In this document: positions 3 to 11,849 of the stretch, piece after piece
Numbering within the stretch: the stretch's first letter is position 1
Layout of the letters: each line of letters starts with the position of its first letter
Assembly: GCA_902762305.1 (NCBI GenBank)
Contig: CACWNW010000002.1
Location: 62,001-126,000 of the forward strand
DNA from: Fibrobacter succinogenes
GTDB lineage: Bacteria; Fibrobacterota; Fibrobacteria; Fibrobacterales; Fibrobacteraceae
DNA: 64,000 bases
Direction of reading: 5' to 3'
Notes under the pieces: model-generated
What the model saw: only the letters and a program-made list of their open reading frames with translations
The model's database searches: none
What the model was told of the DNA's origin: nothing
Program-made: the position numbers and the translations under genes

Positions 3-914
3 CACTTCTTCGTGACCCCGATGGAAGCGAAGGACGTTGTGGCTGACAAGCTCCCGCAACTCGCCGACGCCATCAAGGAAACGCTCGCCATCGACGGCAG
101 CGACGTGAAGGCCGCCCTCAAGGCCATCAACGAATGGCTGAACTCCGGCGAAATTCCGAGCGATGTGGAACTTTCGAAGAACGAACTCCGCGGCCTCAAG
201 AAGGCATGGCTCACCGCCCAGTGCAAGGAAGCCTTTACCGCCAGCTGGAACGCAAAGATTGCCAACGACTGCGACGACGTCTTTGCCGACTCGATGCTCG
301 CCGACACTTACCTCCGCCTGCTCGGCCTCAAGCCCATCAGCGACGAGAAGAAGGCCAAGGCCAACCTGCTCCGCGTTTTCAACACGAACTACAAGGCCAA
401 CAGCCCGCTCATCGGTGCTGCAAACCTTGTGCGCAAGGACGGCTCTCCGCTCGACGAATTCAACTTCCAGGCTCACGACGTGTGGATTGGCATCCAGTAC
501 AGCATCATGTGCGCCATGATGCACCACGGCCTTGTGAGTCAGGCAGCCGACATGGGTGATTCCATGATCCGCAACCTCTACGAAGAAGCCCGTATCCCGT
601 TCGCCGCACCGGAAGGATTCAACGGTTCCTGCCGCCTGCACCCGGAAGCCCTCGTGAAGGCATTCGGCCTTAGCGCTACCGCCGCCGACAAGATGCACAA
701 GGAACTCCTGAAGAAGGGCGCCCTGCTTGCAGACTCCCGCATCAGCCCGAAGCTCCCGCGCAACCTGCCCGCCTTTACAAAGGCATTCGGCAGCATCGCC
801 AAGGCCAATAAGGTTGAAGCAAGCGCGCTGTTCATGCTGCTCCACAGCACGGCACTCAAGTACACCGCCGGCAAGTACTTCCGCCCGGGTATGGTGTTCG
901 CTCTGCTGTACTAA
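3..914 (+). CDS. C-terminal part of a GH116 (glucosylceramidase/bile-acid beta-glucosidase-like) glycoside hydrolase, 5' end outside window
   Basis: The frame is already open at base 3, so the first in-window ATG (12) is internal and this is the 3' part of a longer gene. From that Met, D93-S-M-L-A-D98 followed by YLRLLGL matches the GH116 region that carries the acid/base Asp in a D-x-M/Q-x-A-D setting. HDVWIGIQY (about 155-163) and MIRNLYEEARIPFAAPEGF (about 184-202) correspond to the VWxGVxY and WExxGxxFQTPEA blocks of GBA2-like enzymes. Members of the family hydrolyse beta-glucosides or glucosylceramide in an (alpha/alpha)6 barrel. The last 90 residues diverge from GBA2. The nucleophile Glu would be upstream of the window, so catalytic competence cannot be judged. 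A REP-like hairpin and an intrinsic terminator follow the stop. Confidence 0.68.
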   Translation, partial: HFFVTPMEAKDVVADKLPQLADAIKETLAIDGSDVKAALKAINEWLNSGEIPSDVELSKNELRGLKKAWLTAQCKEAFTASWNAKIANDCDDVFADSMLADTYLRLLGLKPISDEKKAKANLLRVFNTNYKANSPLIGAANLVRKDGSPLDEFNFQAHDVWIGIQYSIMCAMMHHGLVSQAADMGDSMIRNLYEEARIPFAAPEGFNGSCRLHPEALVKAFGLSATAADKMHKELLKKGALLADSRISPKLPRNLPAFTKAFGSIAKANKVEASALFMLLHSTALKYTAGKYFRPGMVFALLY

Positions 915-1138: not shown

Positions 1139-2371
1139 TTATTCAAGTTTACGTACTAAGCGGAATCCCTTAAACCCTTTTATTAAAGGAGAGTCTTTAG
1201 GATATGGCATTCCTCGTTCAATACAAACATATTGTTTCATATAACGACAACTAGGGCGAAGATCGTACGAATCCTCATAGCCATTGCATGCTAAATTACT
1301 ACTATATGTCGTTCCCTTAATGGAAATTACAACCTCTTCCGCATTACCATAAACATCGTACAGTCCGAAATAATTGGGCTCAAAGGATTTTATCGAATAA
1401 ACTCCGATTTTGCCGTTAGAACAATTTATATTCATATAACGACTTAATTCTTTTTCATCGGGTTCGTTTCCCCATGGGAATATTGTTGAGGCGCCACCAT
1501 TTTGGAGAACGCTCCATTCATCTCTTAAAGGATATCTATATCCATTTGCTGTAGTATCCCAAAAAACAACAATACCATTTTCTAGCTTCCGTACAAGCCC
1601 ATTTCTTTTTTTGGAATATAAGGTAGAATCTTCTAAAACAGGACTCATCCAAGCAGGATTCAAATGGTCAACTAGTGAACGGATTAAAACATAGCGTTCA
1701 TCATTGACTACTGGATAATTCAAATTATTTATAGAGTCTTGAAAGGGGTAAAAACTTCTTGCAAAATCCCTTTTAAAGAATGTTTCAAAAGAATTAAATT
1801 GAGGACTATTAGGCATTTTTTCATGCATTTCAGAAAATTTTTTTCGTAACCAAATGGCATCTTTTATTCTTAATTCTGTTTTGTCTACAATTAGATCATA
1901 CTGAAAAGAGATATTTCTTACTTTATTTTTCTTTGACCCCTCACCATAATATGAATCCCATATTTTGAAGTTTTTTCCAGCAAAGTCCACAATTGTTTGA
2001 TTTACTAAAATCCAGCTAGAATCCGCTTCTGCCAAATCATTCAAATCTCTAGAGAACAGCACTAAAATGCTCCTCGTGTAAGGAGAGCCATCCACATAGA
2101 CACAATTTAGAGAATCTACATGAGCAGGACCATTTACTATCCAAACGCCATCACTAGCATTTTTTCTATCAGGACAAAGTTTCACACCCTGATTCCAATC
2201 CACTTCATACCATTTCTTACGGCCAACAGTTTTTCTCGGATTCACTGTTTTATAAGATTGCCTCACCGCAATGTTTTTCTCTTTTGGGGCAACATATGAA
2301 TTTTTTAAACCGTTTTCTTCCCCAAATGAACAAGAAAGGCAAATCAGCAATAAAGAAATAAATTTTTTCAT
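1139..2371 (-). CDS. Exported SUMF1/formylglycine-generating-enzyme-like domain protein
   Basis: 410 residues with an N-terminal signal peptide (MKKFISLLLICLSCSFG); the LSCS stretch could be a lipobox. The C-terminal third carries the marks of the SUMF1/FGE fold: FPWGNEPDEKE (about 300-310), GLYDVYGNAEEVV (about 338-350) and the terminal GFKGFRLVRKL. In true FGE this fold oxidises a sulfatase Cys. Here the active-site Cys pair is not recognisable and no sulfatase is nearby, so I read the domain as a structural or binding module, as is frequent in Fibrobacter. The N-terminal 250 residues match nothing I know. Base composition is clearly AT-richer than the housekeeping genes in this window. It lies 13 nt downstream of the AAA ATPase gene and may be cotranscribed with it. 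Confidence 0.65.
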   Translation of the reverse strand: MKKFISLLLICLSCSFGEENGLKNSYVAPKEKNIAVRQSYKTVNPRKTVGRKKWYEVDWNQGVKLCPDRKNASDGVWIVNGPAHVDSLNCVYVDGSPYTRSILVLFSRDLNDLAEADSSWILVNQTIVDFAGKNFKIWDSYYGEGSKKNKVRNISFQYDLIVDKTELRIKDAIWLRKKFSEMHEKMPNSPQFNSFETFFKRDFARSFYPFQDSINNLNYPVVNDERYVLIRSLVDHLNPAWMSPVLEDSTLYSKKRNGLVRKLENGIVVFWDTTANGYRYPLRDEWSVLQNGGASTIFPWGNEPDEKELSRYMNINCSNGKIGVYSIKSFEPNYFGLYDVYGNAEEVVISIKGTTYSSNLACNGYEDSYDLRPSCRYMKQYVCIERGMPYPKDSPLIKGFKGFRLVRKLE

Positions 2372-2384
2372 AAAGAACTACAAT

Positions 2385-3785
2385 TTAAGGCTGAGTCAGC
2401 AAAAATCCCATATATAGGGGGAGCGTGAGAATTGCGCCATTTCGCCCTATATTGTAGTCGCCAAGTTTTATCGCCTGCTCTACATGATATTTCTCCGTAT
2501 TCTTGAGAACAGTCTTTAGCGACTTTGCGTTACCGGTTTGAGCCTTGCATTCGACAGGAGTACATTTGCCTTGGTAACGCATGACAAAATCGAGTTCGAC
2601 GCCGCTATCTTTGTGATAGTAGTAAAGCTTTCGACCCATTTTACCAAGTAAATCAGCAACAAGGTTCTCGAAAATCGCTCCCTTGTAGCCAAGAAGGTCT
2701 CCACTTAAAATATTTGACTGAGTTCCGTCTTCAAGCATCGAAATGAGCAACCCGATGTCGGACATGTAGACTTTAAATTCGCTTTGAATTTTGTTGCCGT
2801 CCAAAGGCAGTTCCGTTTTCTCGATATTATAGCACCGGCGTACGATTCCCGCATCCTCAATCCATTGTAGACTCCCGGCGTAATCTCGTCCGCGGCCACC
2901 TTTTCGCACGATATTATAAGAGAATTTCTTGTATTCGCGTGCAAGCTGAGCTGGGATAGATTCAAAGCATTCTCGGATGTGTGCCTTGTCAGCAGGCGTA
3001 GCATACTTCACCATGTCGGCTTTGTATTCTTCTACAATACGTTTTTGGACCGTCAGCACTTTACCCACGTGCCCCGTCTCTACAAAAGTTGTTAAGACTT
3101 CAGGCATGCCGCCAACAACAACATACTGGTGGAGCAACTCGCGAAAACGATCATGCAGTGCAGGGTCAACGGGAGTCTCTTTTTGTAGGCATTCTTTTAG
3201 ATAACTGAAATGCATCGGTTTGATGCCGTTTGCCCAAAGCCACTCCTCAAAATCCATGGGGTACATTTCGACGATATGTTCGAAACCCACTGGGATGGAC
3301 GCCTCTGGTTCATCCTTCTGTTCTTTTGTCTTGTATCCGTAAACGCCAAGAAACGAACCGGTACACATGACTTCGAATCGTCCATCGAGAAAAAAATATT
3401 TTAGAGAACTACGGGCTAGCGGGCAGTCCTGGATTTCATCGAAAACAAAACACGTTTCGTGAGGTTCTATTTCTGCCGTGGGTATTGCTGCAGAAATTCG
3501 CATGATAATTGACGAGACGGAAATGTCGGTAACAAAGAACTTCTTGTAATCGGGATGCATGCGAAAATCCAGATATACAACATGTTTAAAATGCCGTGTG
3601 GCGAAATCCATCACACTGCTTGTCTTGCCGCATTGACGAATGCCTTTTACGACTATCGGTTTATGATGTGGCTCGCCAAGCCAGTCCTCCAGAATCTTGT
3701 CTATTTTTCTCTTAAACACGTTTTCCAACTCACTTTTTATATGAATATGCACATTTTCCCATTGACTTTTACCATAATGACACAC
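2385..3785 (-). CDS. AAA_14/DUF4143-type ATPase (COG1373 family)
   Basis: 466 residues. Walker A is in VVKGIRQCGKTSS (about 45-57), a beta-strand YLDFR follows (about 71-75), and Walker B is in CFVFDEIQDCP (about 112-122), then the sensor-like MCTGSFLG. The C-terminal half has the DUF4143 nuclease-like region with YKGAIFENLVADLL, YYYHKDSGVELDFVMRY and PVECKAQ, i.e. an E...D...E-x-K PD-(D/E)XK pattern. Family members are common single-gene cargo in accessory DNA of gut bacteria; their biological role is not established. The listed start is a GTG at 3785. A GTG about 22 codons later, just before FKRKIDKILEDW, fits the usual family start better. The gene is AT-rich compared with core genes, which agrees with transfer. 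Confidence 0.85.
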   Translation of the reverse strand: MCHYGKSQWENVHIHIKSELENVFKRKIDKILEDWLGEPHHKPIVVKGIRQCGKTSSVMDFATRHFKHVVYLDFRMHPDYKKFFVTDISVSSIIMRISAAIPTAEIEPHETCFVFDEIQDCPLARSSLKYFFLDGRFEVMCTGSFLGVYGYKTKEQKDEPEASIPVGFEHIVEMYPMDFEEWLWANGIKPMHFSYLKECLQKETPVDPALHDRFRELLHQYVVVGGMPEVLTTFVETGHVGKVLTVQKRIVEEYKADMVKYATPADKAHIRECFESIPAQLAREYKKFSYNIVRKGGRGRDYAGSLQWIEDAGIVRRCYNIEKTELPLDGNKIQSEFKVYMSDIGLLISMLEDGTQSNILSGDLLGYKGAIFENLVADLLGKMGRKLYYYHKDSGVELDFVMRYQGKCTPVECKAQTGNAKSLKTVLKNTEKYHVEQAIKLGDYNIGRNGAILTLPLYMGFLLTQP

Positions 3786-5298: not shown

Positions 5299-5925
5299 AT
5301 GAAAAAAGTTTTTCTTAGCGCCTCCATAATGTCTGTCGCCTTTTTGAGCGGTTGCGGTGATTCCGAATCTTTCGGATCGTCAGCACCAATGCCCGACGGA
5401 GTCGTAAAGACCCTCGCCGACTTGGGAAAATGCAATTCATCTAAACAGGGAGAAGTTAACCGAGTCCTCGCCGACGGAAGTTTTTACCGTTGCGAAAACG
5501 AGCAGTGGATCGACCTCGGTTGGGAAATGGAGCTCCCAACTTCCTCCAGCAGCGCATCCGATGAAGACGCCAGTTCCAGTTCGAAAAAGCCCGTCTTTGA
5601 CGAAGACGACGTCATCGAGACGCCCAAGAGTTCCTCCAGCATCGAAGAATCCAGCTCCAGCGAAGAAAGTTCTTCCAGCGTAGAAGAGTCCAGTTCCAGC
5701 GAAGAAAGCTCTTCCAGCATCGAAGAGTCCAGCTCCAGCGAAGAAAGCTCTTCCAGCGTAGAAGAGTCCAGCTCCAGCGAAGAAAGCTCTTCCAGCGTAG
5801 AAGAATCCAGTTCCAGCGAAGAAAGTTCTTCCAGCGTCGATGAGTCCAGTTCCAGCGAAGAAAGTTCTTCCAGCGTCGAAGAATCCAGCTCCAGCGAAGA
5901 AAGTTCTTCCTCCGAAGGAACTTAA
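5299..5925 (+). CDS. Lipoprotein ending in seven serine/glutamate 13-mer repeats
   Basis: 208 residues. Signal peptide with lipobox LSGC (Cys19). A short domain (about 35-75) contains GEVNRVLADGSFYRCENEQWIDLG, a pattern seen in Fibrobacter surface lipoproteins. The rest is Ser/Glu rich and ends in seven 13-residue units of the form (V/I)EESSSSEESSSS, then EGT and the stop. In most neighbours the poly-Ser stretch links the lipid anchor to a folded domain; here it is C-terminal and nothing follows it. ATG at 5299 is chosen because AAAGGAGAG lies 8 nt upstream and the signal peptide starts there. A strong terminator follows at 5957-5987. Function unknown. Confidence 0.75.
   Translation: MKKVFLSASIMSVAFLSGCGDSESFGSSAPMPDGVVKTLADLGKCNSSKQGEVNRVLADGSFYRCENEQWIDLGWEMELPTSSSSASDEDASSSSKKPVFDEDDVIETPKSSSSIEESSSSEESSSSVEESSSSEESSSSIEESSSSEESSSSVEESSSSEESSSSVEESSSSEESSSSVDESSSSEESSSSVEESSSSEESSSSEGT
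5641..5913 (+). repeat. 39-bp tandem minisatellite, 7 units, inside the lipoprotein gene
   Basis: Seven in-frame 39-bp units encode (V/I)(E/D)ESSSSEESSSS. Units differ mainly at synonymous Ser codons (AGC, AGT, TCC, TCT) and at the first residue (I, V, I, V, V, V, V). The array runs to within 12 nt of the stop codon. Confidence 0.9.
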
Positions 5926-7564: not shown

Positions 7565-8236
7565 TTATTCCCGCTCTACCAGCGGAATCGTATTCCTCTG
7601 TTCTAGCGACGTGTATTTTAGATCAGAACTGCTCACGTCCAGCGAGAATTTCACTTCCGCGACACATTCGCAACCATACGTCACGTCCATATTCCGCGCA
7701 AAACTTACATACAAAGTATCATTAACGATACCAAGATCCACATCCCCGAGGGCATTAATTTCATTCACAAAGGCTTCCGCCTCGCCCTTATCGCATGGAA
7801 TCTTAAAGTAATCGGTTATCACAATATCTACAGCATCCCCGTCGACAAACTTGGACGCATAAGGCGCCATCACGTCCAATTCCACATGGGCGACATCGTC
7901 TACGCACCTGAGAGATACGTTTCTTGCAAACAAGGCCGCATCAATCGCATCCTCTGCCGAAGAAGACGACAAATCGGGTATGAATTTATTTTCGCCATTG
8001 TCATCCGAACTACTGCTCATCACAGATTCACGGTCCGACGAACTGGATTCGAATCCATTTTCCAAACCAGATGACGAAGTCACCTCGGGCACAGCATCCA
8101 ACGAAGACGAACTGCTGGCCACCGCAAGCGGATTAGAATTGGGGTCAATCGTTCCGCCCGCCATATTTTCACCAGTGCAGGCAATCAAGAAAAGAAGCAG
8201 GAAACTTCCCGTACAAAGAACAAACTTTTTAAACAT
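7565..8236 (-). CDS. Serine-linker lipoprotein, paralogue of 3911-4993, second gene of the TIGR02147 operon
   Basis: 223 residues. Signal peptide with lipobox LIAC (Cys20), then Ser-rich linker to about residue 90, then one domain: NVSLRCVDDVAHVELDV, FKIPCDKGEAEAF, LGIVNDTLYVSFARNMDVTYGCECVAEVKFSLD. The latter blocks align with the first half of the lipoprotein at 3911-4993, with conserved Cys. Its ATG (8236) overlaps the end of the TIGR02147 gene by 8 nt (stop at 8229-8231), and its SD, AAGGAG, lies inside that gene, so the two are probably translationally coupled. Function unknown; likely an outer-membrane lipoprotein. Confidence 0.75.
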   Translation of the reverse strand: MFKKFVLCTGSFLLLFLIACTGENMAGGTIDPNSNPLAVASSSSSLDAVPEVTSSSGLENGFESSSSDRESVMSSSSDDNGENKFIPDLSSSSAEDAIDAALFARNVSLRCVDDVAHVELDVMAPYASKFVDGDAVDIVITDYFKIPCDKGEAEAFVNEINALGDVDLGIVNDTLYVSFARNMDVTYGCECVAEVKFSLDVSSSDLKYTSLEQRNTIPLVERE

Positions 8237-9062
8237 GGTGCGTCTCCTTTATCTTTTCCGTAACAGGGAAAAACTGGAAATTGATTCGGCAGACCTGATT
8301 CTGATCCTTGTATTCGTTCGCAATGGAGAGGATTTTCTTGCAGCATGCATCTATTTCCGCCACAATCCTCTTGTTCGCTTCTTCATTCACGCCAAGCGTG
8401 ACCCCGGTAAAATAGCGTTCACTCGGAGAATAGCGCTCGACAGCGCGCGCCGCCATATTCGCCATTTCCTTGTGCATGGAACGGATTGCGATAGGCAGGG
8501 CCTCCTTCGAACCGATAACGGTTTGCTCCGTCTGAGAATAGACCTTTTCCCCGTCCTTCTTCAGGAATCCAGCCTTGAGCAAAAAGCCCAGAATATCGCG
8601 AACCTCCTCGGCGGACACATGTTCCTTGCATTCGTCGGCGATATCGCGTGGACAGGCGCCCGGCATCATCGGGATAAGTTCCCTCAATACAGGGTACTTC
8701 CAGGATTCGTAATACTGGAAGGCATCCCCATCGACAACGCGCACCTTGTGCTCCATTGCAATTCTCTGCATTTCGAGGAGGGCTTCCTTCTTGACGGAAT
8801 CCTTCTCGGCATTGCAGAACGAAACAAGTTCGTAAAAGTAGTCTTCCTCAAAACCGACAAGGCCCATAGACCTAGCCACGGCACTCGCCTTGATCTTGGA
8901 GAGCTTGCTCTGCCCCATGCAAACGAGTTTAAGGAAATTCGGCGAGGAAAACCCGGCACTCTTGCAGAATTCACGCCACGAGAAAGCACCCAGACGCTTG
9001 CGCTCGTCGTAGTAATCCTGCATATACAGGTGGTAGTCCATATATTCGAGAACCGACTTCAT
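8229..9062 (-). CDS. TIGR02147 (DUF4423) family putative transcriptional regulator
   Basis: About 277 residues from the ATG at 9062; a TTG at 9101 would add 13 residues. The N-terminus, MDYHLYMQDYYDERKR followed by FSWREFCKSAGFSSPNFLKLVCMGQSKLSKIKASAVARSMGL, is the family hallmark and reads as a helix-turn-helix. The C-terminal half is the mostly helical DUF4423 region (KYPVLRELI, AEEVRDILGFLLKAGFLKKDG, a second winged-helix-like segment). TIGR02147 is a family expanded in Fibrobacter and present in Bdellovibrio; its members are generally taken for regulators but are little studied. The gene forms an operon with a lipoprotein. Its promoter region carries the palindrome also found in front of the paralogous lipoprotein gene, which fits autoregulation and control of both genes (inference). 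Confidence 0.85.
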   Translation of the reverse strand: MKSVLEYMDYHLYMQDYYDERKRLGAFSWREFCKSAGFSSPNFLKLVCMGQSKLSKIKASAVARSMGLVGFEEDYFYELVSFCNAEKDSVKKEALLEMQRIAMEHKVRVVDGDAFQYYESWKYPVLRELIPMMPGACPRDIADECKEHVSAEEVRDILGFLLKAGFLKKDGEKVYSQTEQTVIGSKEALPIAIRSMHKEMANMAARAVERYSPSERYFTGVTLGVNEEANKRIVAEIDACCKKILSIANEYKDQNQVCRINFQFFPVTEKIKETHHV

Positions 9063-9105
9063 GCACTTGAATATATGTTTTTCGGCAAGGCCAGTCAACA
9101 ACCTT

Positions 9106-9166: not shown

Positions 9167-9421
9167 TCAAGCATCAATATTATACACATTGTATAATACG
9201 CAGAACCACGAAGCGAACGGCGACATCGAGCAATTCAAATTGAAAAAAGAGTTCAAAAACGAGAAATCCCCCGCATCGGCGAGGGATTTCTTGTGTTTAA
9301 GGGTTCTGGTGTACTTCGTCTTGTCTCGGACAACTCTAGTCCGTAGGGTAGCTCCGTTCTGGGAGCCGTCTATGCGCAGCTTTCTGAGCCTCGCGCTTTC
9401 TTTTGCGTCGTTTTTAGCCAT
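9167..9421 (-). CDS. ArfA-like small basic protein; frame continues through an internal transcription terminator (predicted non-stop mRNA)
   Basis: Start ATG 9421, with a strong SD (AGGAGG) 5 nt upstream. The open frame is 84 codons, but a 12-bp terminator hairpin with a T-run (9255-9290) lies over codons 44-56 with no stop codon before it, so the transcript should end in frame near codon 54-56. The basic block L26-R-T-R-V-V-R-D-K-T-K-Y-T-R-T-L-K-H43 resembles the C-terminal motif of E. coli ArfA (LFRxRV, then a K/G-rich stretch, Y-x-R, then K-H), with a gap of three residues. The 54-56 residue predicted product agrees with the size of active ArfA (about 55). Known role of ArfA: it binds stalled ribosomes, recruits RF2 and backs up tmRNA; its non-stop mRNA makes it depend on tmRNA failure. 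The N-terminal half does not match ArfA clearly. The residues after the hairpin are hydrophobic (FASWFCVLYNVYNI). Homology is by eye only. Confidence 0.6.
   Translation of the reverse strand: MAKNDAKESARLRKLRIDGSQNGATLRTRVVRDKTKYTRTLKHKKSLADAGDFSFLNSFFNLNCSMSPFASWFCVLYNVYNIDA
9178..9198. promoter_or_regulatory. Perfect palindrome upstream of the TIGR02147 operon, candidate operator
   Basis: TATTATACA (9178-9186), CAT, TGTATAATA (9190-9198): a perfect 9-bp inverted repeat. It starts 72 bp from the nonamer at 9106, the same distance as in the 5072/5144 pair. It overlaps only the untranslated tail of the ArfA-like frame. Confidence 0.55.
9255..9290 (-). terminator. Intrinsic terminator inside the ArfA-like reading frame
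   Basis: On the minus strand, GAAATCCCTCGC (9290-9279), loop CGAT, GCGGGGGATTTC (9274-9263): 12 bp with one G-U pair, then TCG and TTTTT (9259-9255). It lies fully within the open frame that starts at 9421, so terminated transcripts carry no stop codon. Confidence 0.85.
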
Positions 9422-9477
9422 AACGGCCTCCTTAAGGGGCTAATATAAATTATTTTTAGGGCAAGCAAAAGGGTTTT

Positions 9478-10581
9478 ATGAAAAAGGCATATTGCATTCT
9501 TTTCTCCGCGCTGCTGATGATCGCTTGCGGCGACGACAATTCTTCATCTGCTTCGGATGATGACTATTCTTCATCTGAAGAAGTTTCTATTGAATCGTCC
9601 TCGGACGTAACTAACGTCAGTTCGTCTTCCGAGAAAAAAGACGAACAGGAGTCTTCTTCAAGCATTCAAAAGGCAAATTCTTCTAGCGACAAGGCAGAAA
9701 CCTCATCAAGCGTTCAAGAAGCAAACTCCTCTAGCACAGATGAAATAAAGTCTTCTTCAAGCAAACAAATCATTGCAGATTTCGGCGACAACAAATTCGT
9801 CATTAAGCAGATTCCTACATTCGGTAAGCTAGACGGCAAGCCCTATTTTTACACGATGCAGCCAAGATGCATATATAAAAATGGTGTATTCACCTTAAAG
9901 CCCGACACATCGGACAACGCGTACTTCTATGCGATTGCCAACGACACGCTCACACTTAACCATGTAGATTTAGACAAGGTCCTTGCGGGCACTTATGAAG
10001 AGCCCAGCGCAAAGGAGACCTATTACGGAAAGAATACAGCACTCGAAAGCGAGTGGGAACATCTTTGCTATTACAGCCTAAACGGCGATTATACCAATTG
10101 TAAACAAAGCTATTCCTATCTTATAACAAAGGACACCATTTATATAGTCCAAACATATCCTTTCAATTATGACTACGAAATATTTGAAATTATCGAAAAG
10201 ATCTCGCACACAGAACTCGGGCCTTACGACGAAATGAGCGACGCAGAAAGAGCTTTAAAATATGCAGATAACGGAATTACCGTAAATTCCTCAGGTGTCA
10301 AGACACTCATAAATTTTAAAGACAAGGGAACAATATCCATCGATGAATTAACAAACAAAATTATAAATAACAACGAAACAATTTATACAAAAATAGTCAT
10401 ATCTACAGATAAAAAAGAATGCGTTTTAACATCAGAAAGGACTCCTGTCAAATCGTCAAAATACTGTTCCGAAGAATATCTTCCCTATCTTCAAATTGAC
10501 GATTACGACGGATATGTTTCAACTTACGCAAAAGGCAACCAAGAAGAATTCGACGCCTGCCTAGAGAGCCTATTTGATTGA
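9478..10581 (+). CDS. Serine-rich lipoprotein of unknown function
   Basis: 367 residues. Lipobox MIAC (Cys17), then a Ser/Asp/Glu-rich linker with repeated SSSS blocks to about residue 98, then a folded region of about 265 residues that I cannot assign. That region contains YFYTMQPRCIYKNG, several Lys/Asn-rich stretches and a final [11 protein letters not shown]. It is AT-richer than the downstream operon. The start lies 57 bp from the divergent ArfA-like start, so the two genes share a short promoter region. The stop overlaps the TTG start of tilS by 4 nt, so it may be cotranscribed with the tilS operon, an odd partner for a housekeeping gene. Confidence 0.7.
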   Translation: MKKAYCILFSALLMIACGDDNSSSASDDDYSSSEEVSIESSSDVTNVSSSSEKKDEQESSSSIQKANSSSDKAETSSSVQEANSSSTDEIKSSSSKQIIADFGDNKFVIKQIPTFGKLDGKPYFYTMQPRCIYKNGVFTLKPDTSDNAYFYAIANDTLTLNHVDLDKVLAGTYEEPSAKETYYGKNTALESEWEHLCYYSLNGDYTNCKQSYSYLITKDTIYIVQTYPFNYDYEIFEIIEKISHTELGPYDEMSDAERALKYADNGITVNSSGVKTLINFKDKGTISIDELTNKIINNNETIYTKIVISTDKKECVLTSERTPVKSSKYCSEEYLPYLQIDDYDGYVSTYAKGNQEEFDACLESLFD

Positions 10582-11849
10582 GTTTTGATCTAACACAAAA
10601 TATTCACCGTCATGGGTTCAAGCGCCTGCTGCTCGCAGTTTCGGGCGGTCTGGACTCCATTTGTCTAGCACATTACTTTGTTCACAACAAAGAAGCCTTG
10701 GGCATAGAATGGCTCGGTATCGCGCACGTGCATCACGGATTACGCGAAGAAACTGCCGACAGGGATGCTGCATTTGTCGAGGCATTCGCTCGCAAGTATA
10801 ACGTTCCGTTTTTCCTGAAGAAGCTAGATGGCAAAGCGCTAAAAAATGCCGAGGGCTCGCTCGAAGAGAATGCGAGAGATGCTAGGTACAAGGCGCTAGC
10901 TGATGTCTCTCTGGAGGCACTCCGTGCCGATAAAGTCCACCATGCATTGGATCCTTCGGCTTCGCCTCAGGATGACGAAGGGTTGAGCCCAATCGTCCGA
11001 AGCCCAATCGCTATCGTGACCGCGCATCATGCTGGCGACCAGGCAGAGACTATGTACATGCGGCTCCGTCGCGGAACAACTCTGGCAGGATTGCGGGGAA
11101 TTCAGGAAATCCGCGTTTTAGGCAATAGCCAGGGCGTTGCGGGGCTGGCGTCTGAAGCCCCGCTAGAGGGGGTGATGGAAGACCGTGCAACGGGCTACAA
11201 TCAGGGGGATACTTCCCCCCTCATCATCAATCATCCATCATCAATTATCAATCATCAATCAAAATTCATCTATCGTCCTTTCCTGAACATGACGCACGGG
11301 GAGTTCTTCGCTTACGCCCGCGAAAACGGTCTCGAATGGTGCGAAGACGAAAGCAATGCAGACGTGAAGTTCGCGCGCAACAGGGTGCGGCACGATTTGC
11401 TCCCCCAACTGGAACAGGAATGCCCCGGCGCAAGGGAACAGCTCTGCCGGATTGCAGGAGTTGCCGACAGGGCGTATGCGAAGGTTATCGCAAGGTGCGA
11501 GGCGTTATTTGCCGGAATCCGGGAAGAAAGGGAGATCCCCGACCGAGTCGGGGATGACACTCACACACTCACGCTGGACAAGAAAAGGCTCAACAAGGTC
11601 CTGCGGGAGCATGCCGGTGCCGACCTTTCGGAAATGCTCCGGCTGTGGCTCTCGGAACGGGGTTTCCGCTTCCCCATCGGGTTCTTCTACGGAACAAATG
11701 AACCCGCACACGTCAAAATCCCGCACCATGCGGCATACCGCAGGCGTTCCATCGCCAAAATCGGGCCTACTGTCTGGATTTGCGAATTCAAGAGCCCAGA
11801 GGAAGCCCAGAAATTTGTATCTTGCGGAATGAAAGAAAAAGGATTATAA
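10578..11849 (+). CDS. tilS: tRNA(Ile)-lysidine synthetase TilS with four in-frame palindromic-repeat insertions
   Basis: Lysidinylates the wobble C of tRNA-Ile(CAU) so that it reads AUA. The PP-loop AVSGGLDS (about 17-24), HVHHGLREE (about 50-58), [11 protein letters not shown] (about 97-107) and [20 protein letters not shown] (about 148-167) are typical; N-R-V-R-H-D-L-L-P follows near residue 270. The TTG start at 10578 overlaps the upstream stop. Four repeat-like palindromes lie in frame: residues about 124-136 ([10 protein letters not shown]), 188-196, 215-229 ([11 protein letters not shown]) and 319-328 ([10 protein letters not shown]). Between GIQEIR and FIYRPF there are about 48 residues where relatives have a short loop. 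All motif blocks remain intact, so the protein is probably active. The stop overlaps the ftsH ATG (TAATG). Confidence 0.93.
10949..10985. repeat. REP-like element (GGATCCTTCG...AGGATGAC family) inside tilS
   Basis: GGATCCTTCGGCTTCGCC then TCAGGATGACG resembles the element at 42738-42782 (GATCCTTCG ... CTCAGGATGAC). It is translated in frame as part of TilS. Confidence 0.6.
11139..11163. repeat. Palindromic element inside tilS
   Basis: Arms GCGGGGCT (11139-11146) and AGCCCCGC (11156-11163) around a 9-nt loop, translated in frame in a segment absent from typical TilS. No second copy was noticed in this window, so its membership in a repeat family is unproven. Confidence 0.45.
11221..11263. repeat. 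AT-rich repeat (ATCATCAATTATCAATC family) inside tilS
   Basis: CATCAATTATCAATC followed by ATCAATCAA is identical to the segment at 17080-17102 that borders the 17095-17625 gene. Here it is translated as part of TilS. Confidence 0.65.
11533..11559. repeat. REP-like element (GTCATCCCCGAC family) inside tilS
   Basis: Arms ATCCCCGAC (11535-11543) and GTCGGGGAT (11547-11555). It is the reverse complement of the intergenic element at 917-944 apart from the loop. Translated in frame as [10 protein letters not shown]. Confidence 0.75.

Follow-up and report, generated by a model that had tools for sequence, protein, structure and literature searches.

Genes in which a terminator lies within the reading frame, so that the message lacks a stop codon, have been studied experimentally in two cases, ArfA and BrfA, and both products are RF2-dependent ribosome-rescue factors (PMC8012679, PMC6881298). 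Surveys place ArfA in gamma-proteobacteria, some beta-proteobacteria and a Bacillus group, with BrfA counted as an ArfA homologue (PMC11633108); elsewhere in the literature, the two are presented as independent solutions. ArfA from Escherichia coli has a Lys-His pair (KH) at residues 44-45 of a mature product of 52-55 residues, and its F25 is held in a pocket formed by V198 and F217 of RF2 (PMC6299226). BrfA (YqkK) from Bacillus subtilis is a proven tmRNA-controlled rescue factor, whose gene has an internal terminator and whose product is degraded through tmRNA tagging; the Lys-His of both ArfA and BrfA touches U534 of 16S rRNA (PMC6881298). A third protein, ArfT from Francisella tularensis, is a basic protein of ~40 aa through which a release factor is brought to non-stop ribosomes, but its gene has no terminator ahead of the stop and it carries KKGGSTNKK instead of a KH core (PMC6299226).

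The gene analyzed here lies on the minus strand of a 64,000-nucleotide stretch of Fibrobacter succinogenes DNA (the window, to which positions refer unless a locus is named). Sequence comparison and analogy with the systems above make it likely that it is a monocistronic, non-stop-encoded gene for an alternative ribosome-rescue factor, which would be controlled by tmRNA and would most likely recruit RF2. From the ATG at 9421 the frame is open for 84 codons to its first in-frame stop at 9169-9167, and the sequence, frame, Shine-Dalgarno element and coordinates first proposed all stood on re-reading. The Shine-Dalgarno form AAGGAG(G/A) is kept 5' of nearly all homologues. A consensus scan of the upstream region found no promoter; the TATATT there, a candidate element, is so near the gene that the leader, if any, would be very short. 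The conserved core (Table 1; consensus RTRVVRDKTKYxRxxKHK) is predicted to comprise a release-factor-contact strand followed by an mRNA-channel tail, and the part of the frame beyond the T-run is probably absent from the main expressed product.

Table 1. Positions of the gene, its parts, its neighbors and related loci
Feature	Position	Strand	Basis or remark
Predicted gene	9421..~9255	-	~55 codons; frame enters 13-bp hairpin and T-run without a stop
Reading-frame part expected in mRNA	9257..9421	-	~55 full codons, MAKNDAKESARLRKLRIDGSQNGATLRTRVVRDKTKYTRTLKHKKSLADAGDFSF
Shine-Dalgarno AAGGAGG	9427..9433	-	direct reading
Upstream region, between gene and divergent lipoprotein-like gene (start 9478, +)	9434..9477	-	contains TATATT 9447-9442
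Conserved core LRTRVVRDKTKYTRTLKHKK	9287..9346	-	codons 26-45, near-invariant alignment columns
KH motif	9298-9293	-	codons 42-43, within core
In-frame 13-bp hairpin AGAAATCCCTCGC-CGAT-GCGGGGGATTTCT, loop CGAT	9262..9291	-	fold and conserved pairing
Tail CGTTTTTGAA, T-run 9259-9255	9252..9261	-	predicted 3' end of the mRNA, not preceded by a stop codon
Rest of open frame up to first stop	9167..9254	-	non-conserved
TIGR02147 gene, downstream	8229-9080	-	same strand as the short frame
Lipoprotein-like ORFs	5299-5925; 9478-10581	+	long serine-rich runs (SSSSEE/SSSVEE repeats)
L260 homologue, viral contig	11050-11166	+	ordinary stop
Jumbo-phage hairpin homologues	L264:~5665-5880; L267:~1560-1790	-	hairpin within the frame
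Viral L262 gene, ending ...GPFRMRVVRDKTKYTRKTKHKCVRSSDG and stop	~280-416	+	ends directly before tRNA-Arg gene
Pelagibacter phage HTVC027P gp30	L244:15768-15944	-
Standalone GGQ protein, locus L113	G000:C34:4281-4745	-	155 residues

The hairpin at 9291-9262 is the strongest terminator-like site within the surrounding 2.6 kb, and its fold is far more stable than that of shuffled sequence (z = -4.6). That it lies inside the frame, as the original prediction had it, was borne out: it starts at codon 44, its stem measures 13 bp, and the T-run is over after codon 55. A terminator survey of the window, based on 51 non-overlapping ORFs of at least 100 aa, placed the five other clear terminators 21-39 nt 3' of the upstream gene's stop; two more terminator-like sites fell within ORF calls, one of them being the end of a tRNA-Glu beneath a probably spurious ORF. 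By analogy with ArfA and BrfA, the transcript would end at the hairpin and T-run. However, several species have only a short or broken U-tract 3' of the stem, and the mRNA end may therefore be created by cleavage instead of termination.

A systematic homologue search of Fibrobacterota genomes gave strong family-profile scores in 66 of the 80 genomes of the genus Fibrobacter and in 4 genomes from three other Fibrobacteraceae genera, with weak Fibrobacterota matches in G022 and G002. The full-length gene is missing from the remaining 14 genus genomes, several near-complete ones among them. The first 56 residues match close relatives in Fibrobacter; within the family alignment, both the NGxTLRTR(V/I)(V/I) segment and the KH are near-invariant, the variants of the latter being one KH-to-KY change and one LKS. 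No in-frame stop occurs up to the end of the T-run in 65 of 66 distinct homologues, whereas the same stretch contains stops in 21 (+1) and 49 (+2) of the 66 when read in the other frames; because these 66 rows are mutually related, the counts are not independent trials, and the non-stop argument is carried by more distant homologues. In two of these (L073, with a stem around TCGAAATCCTTCGA followed by T8, and L075, with AACGGCCC-GCAA-GGGTCGTT followed by TGATTTTTT), an unrelated stem is found in the same layout, and a third with the same layout and again an unrelated stem (L246; AGGAAAAGGGCC ... GGCCCUUUUUCU) comes from another family of the phylum and lies 3' of a tyrosyl-tRNA synthetase-like gene. 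All three lack a stop from the KH core through the T-run. The stem of the chromosomal homologue L072 reads CCATCGC/GCGATGG instead of CCCTCGC/GCGGGGG.

Selection acts on both the protein and the RNA. Ahead of the hairpin, conservation is 0.86, 0.91 and 0.62 at codon positions 1, 2 and 3, and the looser third position therefore indicates a protein under selection. In the stem codons, the corresponding values are 0.90, 0.96 and 0.85, with TCC and GCG each present in 60/60 sequences, while third positions on the loop side are free (0.49), which implies that the RNA stem is under selection too. The stem is paired in 98.2% of cells over 50 distinct hairpins, compared to only 41-64% when the partner is slid by 1-3 columns. 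The covariation score was matched by 1/500 shuffles, with changes on both sides in only 2/12 pairs, as strong conservation of the stem sequence leaves few classical compensatory changes. When codons are numbered from the one after the conserved Tyr, the T-run ends at codon 18 and the earliest in-frame stops among the 65 open rows appear at codon 20, past the T-run. From this codon onwards, conservation is at background (0.30, 0.28 and 0.29), with scattered stops at codons 20-39. This fall at the T-run means that the functional unit ends there, without a stop codon.

An ordinary stop ahead of the hairpin in chromosomal homologues, named in the original prediction as a refuting observation, was also looked for and not found. 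Three of the relatives inspected depart from a frame open through the hairpin. One, divergent in sequence, lies on a contig that resembles a mobile element (L255/L074, G108:C34) and has an ordinary TAG and no T-run. The second, L066, is the only row with an early stop: near position 3132, at the end of contig LVAE01000007.1, its hairpin switches to unrelated sequence beginning TGAACCCCGAAAGTTGGACA, possibly the end of an insertion sequence of the IS3 type. The third, G116, is a broken copy, a truncated pseudogene with the first 22 residues followed by unrelated sequence. Thus, at the level of sequence, the stop counts, the pairing, the end of conservation and the distant homologues strongly support the non-stop logic that had been proposed from this one gene.

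The same genome encodes tmRNA (tag ADENYALAA), SmpB, RF1 and RF2, the last with an SPF motif and an E. coli-style programmed frameshift site. Fibrobacter RF2 has V and F at the equivalents of E. coli V198 and F217, and RF1 has V and A; the place in the Fibrobacter protein comparable to ArfA F25 is taken by a near-invariant Leu (L26) in the core, and by Phe in the viral homologue L262. Sequence comparison supports a selected protein, a selected in-frame hairpin with no stop before it, conservation that ends at the T-run, and the presence of tmRNA, SmpB and RF2. From ArfA and BrfA we infer termination at the hairpin, tmRNA tagging, channel binding, RF2 recruitment and rescue. As long as trans-translation works, tmRNA-SmpB would mark the nascent chain for degradation; under overload, a fraction of the protein would escape untagged. 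The basic KH tail KTKYTRTLKHKK would then enter the vacant mRNA channel of further non-stop ribosomes, while NGATLRTRVV, the segment ahead of it, would recruit and activate a release factor, most likely RF2, leading to peptide release. The circuit would thereby act as a back-up, becoming functional only upon failure of trans-translation. The factor of ~55 residues probably folds only on the ribosome. Such a factor in Fibrobacterota would show that the feedback circuit recurs across bacterial phyla. It also supplies a search rule: a conserved frame, a hairpin ahead of the stop, and conservation that ends at the T-run.

Sequence searches place the KH core in a broader family, most of whose members are carried by phages. 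It matches phrog_2701 (E 1.6e-6), phrog_18092 and phrog_6310, as well as DUF7230 (PF23876), the last below the curated cut-off and over residues 29-46 only (22.5 vs 27 bits, E 1.3e-4). These are phage microproteins of unassigned function that share an NKxKYxRKxKHK core, but most of them are without the NGxTLRTR segment and the viral ones examined end with an ordinary stop. Profile-profile comparison with the phage KH family gave E values of 2.5e-9 to 4.7e-11, the best hhalign match (E 4.7e-11) scoring 49.5, when none of 150 column shuffles exceeded 15.2. A search of IMG/VR, whose labels define viral status here, with the degenerate pattern KxKYxRKxKHK returned at least 80 loci (L122-L201 among the matches listed). 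Nearly all of the 80 loci examined encode small proteins (mostly ~35-55 aa); in every one the core is near the end of the frame, with an ordinary stop 1-8 residues past KHK, and no stable hairpin was found past KHK. The sequence MKRDGFIIKSFKREINLQTRFIKNKTKYTRKEKHKK... or close variants occurs in 40 Campylobacter phages, and many phage relatives have only the tail in common with the Fibrobacter protein. Searches of phages and plasmids by tblastn with short basic queries were mostly negative, a result for which low-complexity filtering and the shortness of the queries are the probable reasons.

Closer relatives were found on several viral contigs. Near-full-length homologues on L260/L261 (243 kb), L263 (55 kb) and L265 (248 kb) have an ordinary stop overlapping the next start and no hairpin, and such copies, of jumbo or large phages, would escape tmRNA control. 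Six tRNA genes are also present on L265. In the jumbo-phage homologues of L264 (355 kb) and L267 (308 kb), by comparison, the frame contains a hairpin (TCCATCGC...GCGATGGA with TTTCGCTTTT) like that of L072, which suggests that phages, too, can sense the state of the host tmRNA system. Where the frame of these two finally stops, it overlaps the start codon ATG of the following gene, which is conserved (MRR(R)KQxK.D..EV.VGRAIK.ANLFK). Apparent nicotinate phosphoribosyltransferase and nucleotide adenylyltransferase genes were recognized by eye on L264.

The family match predicts that phages carry ribosome-rescue factors. It is conceivable, with the balance only slightly against it, that KH-tail microproteins form a widespread, phage-spread class for ribosome rescue or takeover, comprising constitutive phage versions and tmRNA-sensing non-stop versions in some jumbo phages and Fibrobacterota chromosomes; if true, this would be the third independent lineage of back-up factors encoded without a stop, and would give a function to DUF7230/phrog_2701-type proteins. 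A related proposal, which we regard as possible but somewhat doubtful, is that the Fibrobacter gene is itself phage-derived, a phage KH protein that rescues or takes over ribosomes during infection having been domesticated under tmRNA control. While this fits the close homologues on 243-355 kb and other viral contigs, the Campylobacter phages, the large IMG/VR family and the strength of the best profile match, the hairpin is already present in two jumbo-phage copies, and chromosomes of almost the whole genus have the gene, with changing gene neighborhoods. The proposal concerns origin, and is compatible with the product being a rescue factor.

How the protein relates to ArfA (YhdL, PF03889; E. 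coli, beta/gamma-proteobacteria) has to be considered separately. The two have in common a small basic protein of similar (predicted) product length, KH in a basic C-terminal tail, a hydrophobic-R-x-R-V ahead of the tail, and a hairpin within the frame ahead of the stop, as confirmed by refolding E. coli arfA; the Fibrobacter KH lies 11-13 residues ahead of the predicted product end. They differ in phylum, in the unrelated sequences of their stems and tails, and in the KGKGS segment of ArfA, in place of which the Fibrobacter core reads RDKTKYTR with a spacing to KH that is 3 residues shorter. The PF03889 profile matched neither the protein from this genome nor any aligned family member, and PDB chains searched with the family profiles yielded no ArfA match. 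With E. coli ArfA as the single sequence on the ArfA side, hhalign gave E values of 0.008-0.014 and a probability of 3-5%, and 4/300 shuffled ArfA sequences (~1%) scored equally. We have therefore not filed the protein as an ArfA. Of the ArfA-like end described in the original prediction, the KH tail is indeed shared, but the KGKGS segment and a profile match are missing and the profile similarity is only suggestive; its option of a distant ArfA went unsupported by the Pfam comparison, and its other option, an independent factor that senses in the same way, is the better fit.

That the protein is a genuine ArfA, highly divergent and with its KGKGS segment lost, is accordingly unlikely, even though the parts follow the ArfA order (hydrophobic residue-R-x-R-V ... 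Y-x-R-x-x-K-H), local alignment with ArfA exceeds shuffles for several members (p 0.0005-0.02), and the viral L262 sequence PFRMRVVRDKTKYTRKTKH is intermediate in look between the two. No relatives of ArfA were found in the viral contigs. The phage protein HTVC027P gp30, named ArfA in PMC12753301, is likewise small and ends in a basic, ArfA-like tail, but has KKGRGSFKR and no KH, scores 20.6 vs a cut-off of 25.5 bits with PF03889, and is outside the Fibrobacter family.

BrfA, compared here from its published description, offers the same intrinsic terminator within the coding region, a non-stop mRNA (predicted here) and a Lys-His channel contact (PMC6881298), but is reported only from Bacillus and has N-terminal helices and a product of ~62 residues; a designed BrfA probe against the PDB matched ArfA chains only. 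The Fibrobacter gene departs from ArfT in that a hairpin precedes its stop, and from ArfB, which has a GGQ catalytic domain, in that its product contains no GGQ. Most likely, the protein adds another rescue factor to those encoded without a stop and controlled by trans-translation; it is not a demonstrated ArfA, but probably works like one. A standalone GGQ protein (L113; RF-1 domain E 1.8e-9), present in 79/80 Fibrobacter genomes and scoring far below the ArfB and RF cut-offs, is a separate candidate for an RF-independent rescue factor distinct from ArfB.

A non-stop-encoded protein under the same regulation could also bind ribosomes without rescuing them; upon failure of trans-translation it might, for example, sit on vacant or stalled ribosomes and serve inhibition, hibernation or signaling. 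The KH tail alone is clearly shared with known rescue factors, and alone is shared by many of the phage relatives, and the release-factor-contact part is not recognizably ArfA. We nevertheless consider such a role quite unlikely, as both experimentally studied genes of this layout encode RF2-dependent rescue factors (PMC8012679, PMC6881298) and the near-invariant NGxTLRTR(V/I)(V/I) stands where ArfA touches RF2.

Because the short frame overlaps a terminator 5' of the TIGR02147 gene on the same strand, it could be read as a leader-peptide attenuator, whose translation governs the hairpin and hence the downstream gene. This very improbable reading was rejected: protein-level conservation extends over ~40 codons, the peptide finishes with a ribosome-factor-like tail, no stop codon lies in or ahead of the hairpin, and the genes adjoining the distant homologues vary, which speaks against a leader that regulates a single neighbor. 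That an ordinary small gene merely happens to be open through its terminator, as is possible for a single sequence, has a negligible probability and is refuted by 65/66 open homologues with at least four unrelated stems, together with phage relatives that, where they have ordinary stops, end 1-8 residues past KHK in 80/80 cases examined. Around the gene, the two lipoprotein-like ORFs listed in Table 1 each adjoin TIGR02147-family genes.
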